Shown: piece after piece, positions 21,895-25,313 of the stretch
Layout of the letters: each line of letters opens with the position of its first letter
How positions within the stretch are numbered: position 1 is the first letter of the stretch
Source of the DNA: a virus
Strand: one strand, 5' to 3'
Virus record (IMG/VR): IMGVR_UViG_3300033143_005799
Location: 1 to 36,378 of that record
Length of the DNA: 36,378 nucleotides
Program-made: the position numbers and the translations under genes
The notes under the pieces: generated by a model
Told to the model about the DNA's origin: nothing
Seen by the model: the letters and a program-made list of their open reading frames with translations, nothing else
Databases searched by the model: none

Positions 21895-21902
21895 AGGTGA
21901 TT

Positions 21903-22379
21903 ATGGAACAATTTATTGGAAACAAAATTATTAACGCAGTGTTGATGACACGGCTCGCTTACAACCAGTTTCGCGGTTGGGAATTACCGTTGGATGAAAA
22001 TGGTGACGACGAGGGTTATCTGGTTGAATACGTCGATGGTGGCGAGGCAAATACTAATGCTTATGACGGATATGTTAGCTGGTCGCCGAAGAGTGTGTTT
22101 GACCGTGCTTATAATCCTGTTACCGAAATGACATTCGGTGATGCGCTGGTCATGTTGAAGGCTGGTCGCAAAGTGGCCCGTGCTGGTTGGAACGGCAAGG
22201 GTATGCATATTTATCTCGAAGAGGGTCGCCATCTACCGCTCGCAGCTGGCATCGAGAAGGGCACAACGCGCATATACGATCCAGTTTTTGTCATGTACAC
22301 GGCACAAGGTTCTCACCAACCTGGTTGGCTGGCATCACAATCCGATATGTTGTCAGAAGATTGGTGTATTGTAGAATAA
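21903..22379 (+). CDS. Gp49/66-family protein fused to a DUF2829 (Tad2-like) domain
   Basis: 158 residues; ATG 21903 with AGAGGTGATT upstream is preferred to the GTG six bases before. Residues about 5-70 (GNKIINAVLMTRLAYNQFRG, DENGDDEGYLVEYVDGG, YVSWSPKSVFDRAY) match the N4 Gp49 / Sf6 gene 66 family. Residues about 75-158 (MTFGDALVMLKAGRKVARAG, VFVMYTAQGSHQPGWLASQS, DMLSEDWCIVE) match DUF2829. Members of DUF2829 include Tad2, which blocks Thoeris immunity by sequestering its cyclic ADP-ribose-type signal. Anti-defence is therefore a good hypothesis, though not every DUF2829 protein is shown to do this. Confidence 0.85.
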   Translation: MEQFIGNKIINAVLMTRLAYNQFRGWELPLDENGDDEGYLVEYVDGGEANTNAYDGYVSWSPKSVFDRAYNPVTEMTFGDALVMLKAGRKVARAGWNGKGMHIYLEEGRHLPLAAGIEKGTTRIYDPVFVMYTAQGSHQPGWLASQSDMLSEDWCIVE

Positions 22380-22486: not shown

Positions 22487-23143
22487 TTGGAGAAATGTTG
22501 GATCAAACGTGCTCGCTTGAGCTTCCCAACTTTGTTAGTACCAAAGCCTCCGGCTGATGGTGCTGACCCTAAGTATTCAGCCGACTTCATTCTGGAACCA
22601 GATGCTCCTGAGTGGGCTGAGGTTATGGGCATGATTCAGCAGATGGCGGCTGAAAAATGGGGCGATGCGGCTGGCGGTATCCTTAACATGATCAACCAAG
22701 ATTCGCGACAGCGTTGTTACGGTCAAGGTCACGAGAAGGTTAAGAAAAGTGGCGCGGAAATCGGTCAGGTGTACGAGGGATATGAAGGTAAACTTTATAT
22801 TGGCGGCTCAAGTGCCACACAACCCCAGTTGATCGGCACCGATGCACAACCACTACCACCAACAGCGAACAAGAACGAAATGTTCAATGGCGGTAACTAC
22901 GTGGGCGGCATTCTCAATATCTGGTTACAGGATAACAAGTTCGGCAAAGCAGTACGCGCCGGCTTGACCGCTGTCCAGTTCCTTGAGAAAGGCGAATCGT
23001 TCGGTGTTGTACCAATTGATGCAACCTCTGTGTTCACGCAAGTAGAAGGCGCACCAGGTGCGGCTGCTGCAGCAACTGGCGGCGGAATGCCTGGAATGGG
23101 TAGCATGCCGGGCATGGGCGGGGACGTTGACCCATTGGCGTAA
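22487..23143 (+). CDS. DUF2815 single-strand DNA-binding protein
   Basis: 218 residues. RARLSFPTLLVPKPPADGAD, PKYSADFILEPDAPEW and a C-terminal Gly/Met-rich acidic tail (GMPGMGSMPGMGGDVDPLA) match DUF2815, proposed to act as phage SSB. The frame closes upstream at TAA immediately before TTG 22487, so TTG is the only long-start option; no strong ribosome site precedes it, and the better-looking GGAG-AAATG there is in another frame. That is unusual and could reflect a low-level start or a sequence error. Confidence 0.8.
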   Translation: MEKCWIKRARLSFPTLLVPKPPADGADPKYSADFILEPDAPEWAEVMGMIQQMAAEKWGDAAGGILNMINQDSRQRCYGQGHEKVKKSGAEIGQVYEGYEGKLYIGGSSATQPQLIGTDAQPLPPTANKNEMFNGGNYVGGILNIWLQDNKFGKAVRAGLTAVQFLEKGESFGVVPIDATSVFTQVEGAPGAAAAATGGGMPGMGSMPGMGGDVDPLA

Positions 23144-23158
23144 GTTGTAAGTAGTGTG

Positions 23159-23183
23159 AGCCCATCTTCGGGTGGGCTTTCTT
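23159..23183 (+). terminator. Rho-independent terminator after the SSB gene
   Basis: AGCCCATC-TTCG-GGTGGGCT forms an 8-bp stem with a UUCG loop, followed by TTTCTT. Strong intrinsic terminator. The tRNA-like gene starts eight bases later, so it must rely on read-through or its own promoter. Confidence 0.9.
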
Positions 23184-23190
23184 ATAATTT

Positions 23191-23359
23191 GATCGGGTAG
23201 CTCAGACTGGTAGAGCTTTGGGCCGTAGAGATCATCAATCTCGTGGACGATTTGTATTCAGGTAATGAGATAAAACTCGGTGATGCGAGTAAAGTAAAAT
23301 CCTGTAACACAATGACACACTCCCTGTGGGCGTGGGTTCGAATCCCGCCCCGATCACCA
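23191..23359 (+). tRNA. Interrupted tRNA-like gene with about 92 extra bases at the anticodon arm
   Basis: The acceptor arm pairs perfectly: GATCGGG (23191-23197) with CCCGATC (23349-23355), then A and CCA. The D arm is GCTC-AGACTGGTA-GAGC (23200-23216). The T arm is GTGGG-TTCGAAT-CCCGC (23332-23348), preceded by a 5-base variable loop (TGGGC). Between the D arm and variable loop, TTGGG (23218-23222) and CCCTG (23322-23326) can form a weak anticodon stem with one U-U mismatch, but they enclose 99 bases instead of seven. No canonical anticodon loop with U33 is visible, so the amino acid is unknown. It is not long enough for a group I intron or a tmRNA. Could be an interrupted, decoy or decayed tRNA. 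Confidence 0.65.
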
Positions 23360-23568: not shown

Positions 23569-25313
23569 TGAGATACGTTCTGGATATCGAATGTTACATG
23601 AATTATTTTCTAATGATGTGGATACCGGAAGACGGGTCGGCGCCATTTGTTTTTGAGAAGTTCAATGATGTCGTGACTATCTCCAACATCGACGGTATTG
23701 ATTGGTCAGGTACGTTCATCACCTTCAACGGTTGGGGGTACGATTTCCCGATGTGGGGTGCGTTGTGGGCAGGATTCACCAATGAACAATTGAAACACGT
23801 TTCCGATTCAATCATTAAGAAACGTATGATGCCGTGGATTGTTGAGCGTGAGTTCGGTATCAACATCCCATCATTCGATCACATTGATATCATGCAAGTG
23901 CTACCTGGCATGATGAGTTTGAAGATATACGGTGGTCGGATCAACTCTAAAAAATTGCAGGATTTACCGATCCAACCAGATGCAATCATCACTGATGAGC
24001 AATGCGCCCCGATGCGTGAGTATTGTGCGAACGACTGCAAAGTGACATGGGGATTGATGAAAGAAGTTTCCCCTCAGATTGCACTGCGTGTCCGAATGGG
24101 TGAACAATACGGCCTCGATCTGCGCAGCAAATCCGATGCTCAGATTGCCGAAGCGGTGATTGCTTCTGAATACACACGCAGGATCGGGAAACCTCTATAT
24201 AAACCCGATAATGTTGTGCAAAGTTACCGGTACACGCCACCTAAGTTTGTCAATTTCCATAGTCAACAGATGGTCGATATTCTTGAGAATGTAAAGAAGG
24301 CTGATTTCAAAATAAAAGCATCTAACGGGCAGGTTATCGAGCCGGACGAGATGAAGACTGTTGTGGACATGGGTTGCCAATATCAGATGGGTATTGGCGG
24401 TCTGCATTCAATCGACGGTCCCGGCAGTTTTTATTCAGACGATGATGTCACCATATACGACATCGATGTGGCCAGCTATTATCCCGCCATCATTCTGAAT
24501 GCCGGTTATTATCCAAAGCACGTTGGCTATGAATTCTTGAATATCTATCGTGAGATCGTTGAAAAGCGATTGGCTGCCAAGAAATCCGGCGACAAGGTGA
24601 CTGCCGATTCATTGAAAATCACCATCAACGGGTCGTTTGGTAAACTGGGCAGCATGTATTCAAAAATTTACGCACCTGACCTCATGTTCCATGTGACAGT
24701 AACCGGCCAACTCTGCCTACTGATGCTGATTGAACGGTTCCCAGAGCTAGTCATATCGGCCAATACTGACGGTATTATGGTGGCGATCCCGAAGGATGAT
24801 CTACCAGGAATTGAAAAAATAGTACGTGACTGGGAAATGGAAACGGGTTTTGAGATGGAGTGGAATGCCTACAAGTCGGTGCATCGCCGCGATGTGAACA
24901 ATTATTGTGTGATCGCAGCTGACGGTAAAATTAAGAATAAAGGTGTGTTCAAGCCGAGTGACATCGAGAAGAATCCCGCCAACAATATTATCTACAAAGC
25001 CGTGCGTGAATATTTCCAGCACGGTACACCGGTTAGTCAGACGATTCTCGATTGCACCGACATCACGGAATTCTTATCACTTCGTACCGTAAAAGCAGGT
25101 GCCAAGTGGGGGAATGAGATATTAGGAAAGTCAGTGAGATGGTATCACTCGTGGCTGAGTGCCAACTGCATCGAATATCAGAGTAACGGGAACAAGGTGC
25201 CCCTCAGTGATGCCAGTGTACCGTTGATGGAGATACCGGACACGTTTCCGCAGGATGTGAATCACCACTGGTACATTGCTGAGGCGAATAAATTGTTGGG
25301 GAAGATGAAGTGA
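23565..25313 (+). CDS. Family B DNA polymerase with 3'-5' exonuclease
   Basis: 582 residues from ATG 23565 (GGAAAG upstream; ATGA overlap). Exonuclease motifs: Exo I VLDIEC (Asp7, Glu9), Exo II ITFNGWGYDF (Asn55, Asp60), Exo III YCANDC (Tyr153, Asp157). Polymerase motifs: A DVASYYPAI (Asp301), B KITINGSFGK (Lys351), C SANTDGIMV (Asp402). Family B motif C is usually DTD; here the first Asp is Asn400, while the metal-binding second Asp is kept. At 582 residues it is compact compared with the 800-900 typical of cellular members. It should be the replicative polymerase, acting with the Prim-Pol/VapE protein. No terminal protein gene is recognised. Confidence 0.9.
   Translation: MMRYVLDIECYMNYFLMMWIPEDGSAPFVFEKFNDVVTISNIDGIDWSGTFITFNGWGYDFPMWGALWAGFTNEQLKHVSDSIIKKRMMPWIVEREFGINIPSFDHIDIMQVLPGMMSLKIYGGRINSKKLQDLPIQPDAIITDEQCAPMREYCANDCKVTWGLMKEVSPQIALRVRMGEQYGLDLRSKSDAQIAEAVIASEYTRRIGKPLYKPDNVVQSYRYTPPKFVNFHSQQMVDILENVKKADFKIKASNGQVIEPDEMKTVVDMGCQYQMGIGGLHSIDGPGSFYSDDDVTIYDIDVASYYPAIILNAGYYPKHVGYEFLNIYREIVEKRLAAKKSGDKVTADSLKITINGSFGKLGSMYSKIYAPDLMFHVTVTGQLCLLMLIERFPELVISANTDGIMVAIPKDDLPGIEKIVRDWEMETGFEMEWNAYKSVHRRDVNNYCVIAADGKIKNKGVFKPSDIEKNPANNIIYKAVREYFQHGTPVSQTILDCTDITEFLSLRTVKAGAKWGNEILGKSVRWYHSWLSANCIEYQSNGNKVPLSDASVPLMEIPDTFPQDVNHHWYIAEANKLLGKMK

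Follow-up and report, generated by a model that had tools for sequence, protein, structure and literature searches.

Bacterial Y RNAs are known as tRNA mimics in bacteria and phages (cited in PMC7765460). Other systems also join tRNA features to an altered anticodon region: tmRNA has tRNA-like ends with the anticodon region replaced, and some tRNA genes carry a group I intron in the anticodon loop. A 2014 review places every phage intron known by then in protein genes (PMC3984707), and no description of short tRNA introns in phages was found in the part of the literature that we covered.

We compared with these systems a gene from a 36,378-base virus record, a single contig that was analysed whole (the window). 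An earlier note had described a tRNA gene with intact acceptor, D and T arms, an encoded CCA and an anticodon loop enlarged from 7 to 99 bases, about 92 of them extra. Our analysis confirmed a tRNA-like gene with an interrupted anticodon loop, and both the alignment to the Rfam tRNA family and the sequence bore out the enlargement. The gene spans 23191-23359 (169 nt, against 77 for a normal tRNA), and RF00005 matched 23191-23356 on the + strand (Rfam, cmscan; 41.6 bits, threshold 29; E 1.2e-5 with the whole window searched), leaving 98 nt unaligned in the anticodon loop. Its parts are as follows.

23191..23197, + strand: acceptor stem 5' strand GATCGGG, 7/7 pairs with 23349-23355 (RF00005 alignment)
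23200..23216, + strand: D arm GCTC AGACTGGTA GAGC, 4/4 pairs, GG in the loop
23218..23222, + strand: anticodon stem 5' strand TTGGG, 4/5 pairs with 23322-23326
23223..23321, + strand: expanded anticodon loop, 99 nt in place of 7
23223..23246, + strand: possible hairpin 1, CCG..GAGAT/ATCTC..TGG (predicted fold only; p 0.075 against shuffles)
23252..23312, + strand: possible hairpin 2, TTGT/ACAA and CAGG/CCTG around ACTCG/CGAGT (predicted fold only; p 0.066 against shuffles)
23322..23326, + strand: anticodon stem 3' strand CCCTG (sequence reading, RF00005 alignment)
23327..23331, + strand: variable region TGGGC, five bases
23332..23348, + strand: T arm GTGGG TTCGAAT CCCGC, 5/5 pairs (one G-U), canonical T loop
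23349..23359, + strand: acceptor stem 3' strand CCCGATC, A73 and encoded CCA (sequence reading)

Reading the sequence gave 16/16 standard pairs across the acceptor, D and T stems, and the pairing of this outer body is far above chance. The intactness claimed earlier therefore holds for the outer arms (7/7, 4/4 and 5/5 pairs, with canonical loops) and for the CCA, but not for the anticodon stem, where TTGGG/CCCTG forms 4/5 pairs with a U28-U42 mismatch and a U27-G43 wobble. A 4/5 stem was reached by 14.5% of shuffles and is not, alone, beyond chance. A five-pair anticodon stem closing a seven-base loop with U33 is lacking, both as encoded and after excision.

Ordinary phage tRNAs share the acceptor, D and T arms and the encoded CCA of this gene, but the window gene has no usable anticodon loop as encoded, and ARAGORN reported 0 tRNA and 0 tmRNA genes in the window. 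It differs from tmRNA in its complete D arm, and tmRNA was rejected on the ARAGORN result and the absence of an RF00023 match. For group I introns, our control was a viral-contig tRNA (L298, 6409) whose anticodon loop is interrupted by a 240-nt intron with a group I core, although the 2014 review knew of none in phage tRNA genes. The window insert occupies the same loop but is less than half that length, and it gave no RF00028 match in Rfam. The earlier remark that the insert is too short for a group I intron stood, and this candidate was rejected (92 nt), as far as Rfam shows. A P1-like pairing (CCGT/GTGG) is present, with a 3' side that does not fit group I; a likeness to AGGTAATG..GGTGATG of the control intron was put down to chance.

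Interrupted tRNAs were then considered more widely, using a pattern search of IMG/VR for tRNAs with a 70-100-nt gap between the D and T arms. This yielded at least 120 matches, and among the matches listed we counted 61 non-redundant cases after removal of tandem tRNAs. Three motifs recurred in these listed cases above expectation: CAGCAA (11/61, 0.9 expected), ATCCTG (9/61, 0.8 expected) and GTTACTT (6/61, 0.4 expected). Insert-bearing phage tRNAs are common, and two families, a and b, were resolved; the window gene is an interrupted phage tRNA in the broad sense and belongs to neither. In our judgement, both families are of greater interest than the window gene itself. Some cases lay outside them. 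A possible third family (L101, 154 and 1925; L271, 4558) has its insert after the anticodon loop, with the motifs AAGC.. CACCTCGG.. AAGCATACA shared, and a possible fourth (L187, 1152; L202, 2267; L182, 11336) has GGTGAAGGACC..AAACRCT|GG immediately ahead of the anticodon stem's 3' strand. At seven loci (L148, L159, L165, L169, L185, L186, L320), a 5' tRNA half, often with GAGC ACGTA.., directly precedes another complete tRNA; these halves may be split, decayed or Y-RNA-related pieces.

Family a resembles, as judged from sequence, an undescribed type of short tRNA intron. Its inserts, 38-79 nt long, either interrupt the anticodon stem at 28/29 or 29/30 or sit in the loop; they contain a hairpin in which every one of the seven pairs shows changes on both sides, and after it an invariant C.GCA. 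Named members are KVP40 tRNA-Pseudo-3, -4 and -5, genes of Vibrio phages D482, D479, V05, VS1 and nt-1, Cronobacter phage S13 and Synechococcus phage BUCT-ZZ01.

L315, 622-734, 745-868 and 2419-2534: KVP40 tRNA-Pseudo-5, -4 and -3, family a
L316, L317, L350-L355, L130, L140, L153, L171, L188 and L282: other family a loci

These genes are annotated as pseudo (the KVP40 ones as pseudogenes) or not at all, and the phi-pp2 genome paper, writing of that phage and KVP40, mentions "pseudo-forms of low score" (PMC3468402). An unannotated family a-like gene also lies upstream of tRNA-Pseudo-5 in KVP40 (L315, about 385-505; match to the family model R1 at 408-458), with an eight-base anticodon loop after excision. 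Excision restores a 5/5 anticodon stem in 17/18 family a cases. As the cut sites had been picked for pairing, two controls were run. When the 5' exons were swapped, the mean fell at 9.6 and 17 was never reached in 5000 trials. With the cut left free, 14/14 family a genes regained a canonical arm with U33 and a purine at 37, compared to a mean of 1.9 and a maximum of 5 over 2000 shuffles of the first 25 nt. Model R1 was built before V05, VS1, nt-1, S13, D479 and 1.081.O were fetched, and it then matched the element in all of these. A protein with an RNA_ligase domain (PF09414) was found above cut-off in 12/12 family a records versus 8/20 other large phages, a comparison confounded by the shared ancestry of T4-like phages; we treat the link as an association, not a proven requirement.

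The window gene shares with family a an intact tRNA body, a short non-group-I insert in the anticodon arm and a CG|TA 5' junction, and some family a members likewise have C33. Its 92-nt insert is longer, however, and lacks the conserved hairpin and C.GCA core: R1, run without filters on the window, gave no match at the insert. In addition, excision restores neither a 5/5 stem nor a canonical arm, and no RNA ligase is encoded by this phage, the window having been searched for T4-type RNA ligase, Rnl2-type ligase and RtcB (PF09511, PF09414, PF01139).

Family b inserts contain GTTACTT(C) and are also found in Polyangium, Flavobacterium and one Cytophagales genome.

L203, L207, L242, L284, L303, L128, L325-L326 and L328-L331: family b loci, tRNA bodies bearing GTTACTTC

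Ro60 (TROVE) is encoded in 6/6 such bacterial genomes and in 8 family b phage records, and in Flavobacterium sp. H122 its gene lies directly upstream of the family b gene. Matches to YrlA (RF02553), in which the same parts are circularly permuted, abut or overlap family b genes. Considering this linkage and these matches, family b is best read as Y-RNA-like: its members are likely Y RNAs whose parts, compared with YrlA, stand in non-permuted order, and this order may be a variant. The window gene has in common with YrlA and family b a tRNA body with an extra domain at the anticodon side, and occurrence in phages. It differs in having no match to RF02553 or to the family model R2 and no GTTACTTC Ro-stem motif, and no Ro60 gene (TROVE, PF05731) was found in the phage.

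The insert itself resembled nothing that we searched. It gave no Rfam family match up to E 5 and no similar DNA in plasmids; in phages, similarity was limited to the T arm, and 2.86 Mb of retrieved loci held no significant match. As a whole it folds no better than shuffled sequence (z -0.6, p 0.27), and the two sub-hairpins listed above are marginal. All excisions tried failed to give five anticodon pairs or a canonical anticodon arm, and no split combined 5/5 pairs, U33 and a purine at 37; most leave a pyrimidine at 37. The best splits keep TTGGG/CCCTG with 4/5 pairs and C33, giving the loop CCGTAGA or CCGTAGT (GUA; cut after 38 or 37) or, alternatively, CCGCACT (GCA; cut after 34). Restoration of a tRNA-Tyr or tRNA-Cys by excision was rejected on this basis. 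Several other structures were tried and rejected as well: a class II tRNA with the variable arm CCC-TGT-GGG, which left no consistent anticodon arm; a TGGGC target-site duplication, as the resulting tRNA would be without an anticodon arm; and an archaeal bulge-helix-bulge intron, for which a search by eye around CCGT and ACTCCC found no 4-bp central helix.

The gene is the sole tRNA of the phage, which makes a part in bulk codon supply unlikely. It has the following neighbours.

22487..23143, + strand: gp2.5-like ssDNA-binding protein gene, upstream (phrog_112, E 2.5e-25)
23158..23187, + strand: terminator-like hairpin plus T-rich tail, immediately 5' of the tRNA body
23574..25313, + strand: family B DNA polymerase gene, downstream (phrog_1252, E 3.7e-173)

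A TATAAT at 23183-23188 was rejected as a promoter, being too near the tRNA start, and a scan found no promoter there. Upstream, the protein encoded at 21897-22379 has a domain of the Tad2-like (Thoeris anti-defence 2-like) type (PF11195, E 3.3e-24). In Pseudoalteromonas phages PHS21 and AL and in phage DSL-LC05 the gene order is the same and the gap holds no tRNA, and none of the 18 related phage records searched has one. The earlier note had considered that relatives might carry a normal tRNA at this position; instead, the related phages are without any tRNA. Searches by polymerase, tRNA sequence and junction pattern found no gene like this one, the junction-pattern matches being mostly neighbouring tRNAs or chance. 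Five out of 42 additional polymerase relatives possess tRNAs, among them G045, whose polymerase is 41% identical and which carries a different interrupted tRNA of 118 nt (L347, 2813-2930). In this tRNA a stable hairpin occupies the anticodon loop (p 0.019). Its anticodon stem is likewise 4/5 with no canonical split, and its surroundings are unlike those of the window gene, as it precedes queuosine-type (QueE/QueC-like) genes.

An RNA is probably made from the window gene, tRNA-like and, as encoded, unable to read the genetic code. Our leading candidate, held tentatively, is a non-decoding tRNA-like RNA, although a single sequence without close relatives cannot settle the matter and permits no covariation test. 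The departures (U28-U42, C33, mostly a pyrimidine at 37) are confined to the anticodon arm of an otherwise perfect body; selection acting on the body and not on decoding should produce this pattern, which favours that view. Precedent comes from the Ro60-linked Y-RNA-like genes of phages and bacteria, with their tRNA body and anticodon-arm insert, and G045 offers a second tRNA body with a stable anticodon-loop hairpin that cannot be split canonically. On the other hand, the insert is not unusually stable as a whole, is common to no relative and is matched by neither family model (R1, R2), and the phage has no Ro60. A specific partner of this kind, a host Ro60 protein bound by a Y-RNA-like transcript, is very improbable: the architecture is that of family b genes, found mostly in Ro60-encoding genomes, but the GTTACTTC motif and any R2 or RF02553 match are absent and the phage encodes no Ro60. 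Two other rivals follow the leading candidate closely. Somewhat unlikely, yet the more serious of them, is a decaying or recently interrupted tRNA, in which a chance insertion of about 92 nt struck a dispensable phage tRNA that has not yet decayed elsewhere. The insert's lack of significant structure and of similarity to anything searched fits this, as does the anticodon-stem mismatch, and the related phages do without this tRNA, so it is dispensable. Random decay, however, should also have reached the outer body, with its 16 pairs and its D and T loops, or the CCA, where no hits were seen; nor was a target-site duplication compatible with a tRNA, the anticodon arm being lost if the flanking TGGGC repeat is taken as one.

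The second of these rivals, which we consider unlikely, is that the insert is a short intron of unassigned type whose removal gives a tRNA-Tyr-like (GUA, cut after 37/38) or tRNA-Cys-like (GCA, cut after 34) product. Family a makes short intron-like inserts widespread in phage tRNAs, and the 5' junction CCG|TAG resembles its CG|TA. C33 alone does not exclude splicing, because the family a genes KVP40 tRNA-Pseudo-5, nt-1 and D482 have it too, and a host RtcB could supply ligation. Nevertheless, no split restores a canonical arm here whereas all 14 family a genes tested do so, the insert lacks the R1 match and the invariant C.GCA core, and the phage is without the RNA ligase seen in all 12 family a records. 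Of the earlier note's three options (an intron, a tRNA mimic or a fresh insertion), the mimic, with a putative partner and function, fits best, and the intron is weakened by the lack of a canonical excision. Misassembly or chimerism of the metagenome contig is scarcely credible; the gene is known from one contig with no second copy found, but the acceptor strands on either side of the insert form 7/7 pairs, which places both halves in a single gene, and an error exactly in the anticodon loop is unlikely.

If the gene does encode a non-decoding tRNA-like RNA, it would presumably be transcribed as part of the early operon, flanked by the genes for the ssDNA-binding protein and the polymerase. 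With its intact body and CCA, the transcript would be treated as a tRNA by host enzymes (RNase P and possibly CCA-adding, modifying or charging enzymes) and so acquire a stable tRNA fold. Its enlarged loop of 99 nt, replacing the normal anticodon loop, would preclude decoding and may serve as a tether or decoy domain for some partner. It is conceivable, though we think it unlikely, that this gene and perhaps that of G045 represent an undescribed class of phage RNA, with a selected tRNA body and a structured domain that acts as tether or decoy rather than in decoding.

Standard tRNA finders miss such genes or label them pseudogenes, as in KVP40. Short-insert phage tRNAs form recognisable families in laboratory-kept phages, so the question is testable now. 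If the RNA from the window gene is made and remains unspliced, it would be a tRNA mimic in a small phage, and phages would, if this is true, reuse the tRNA fold for jobs beyond decoding.
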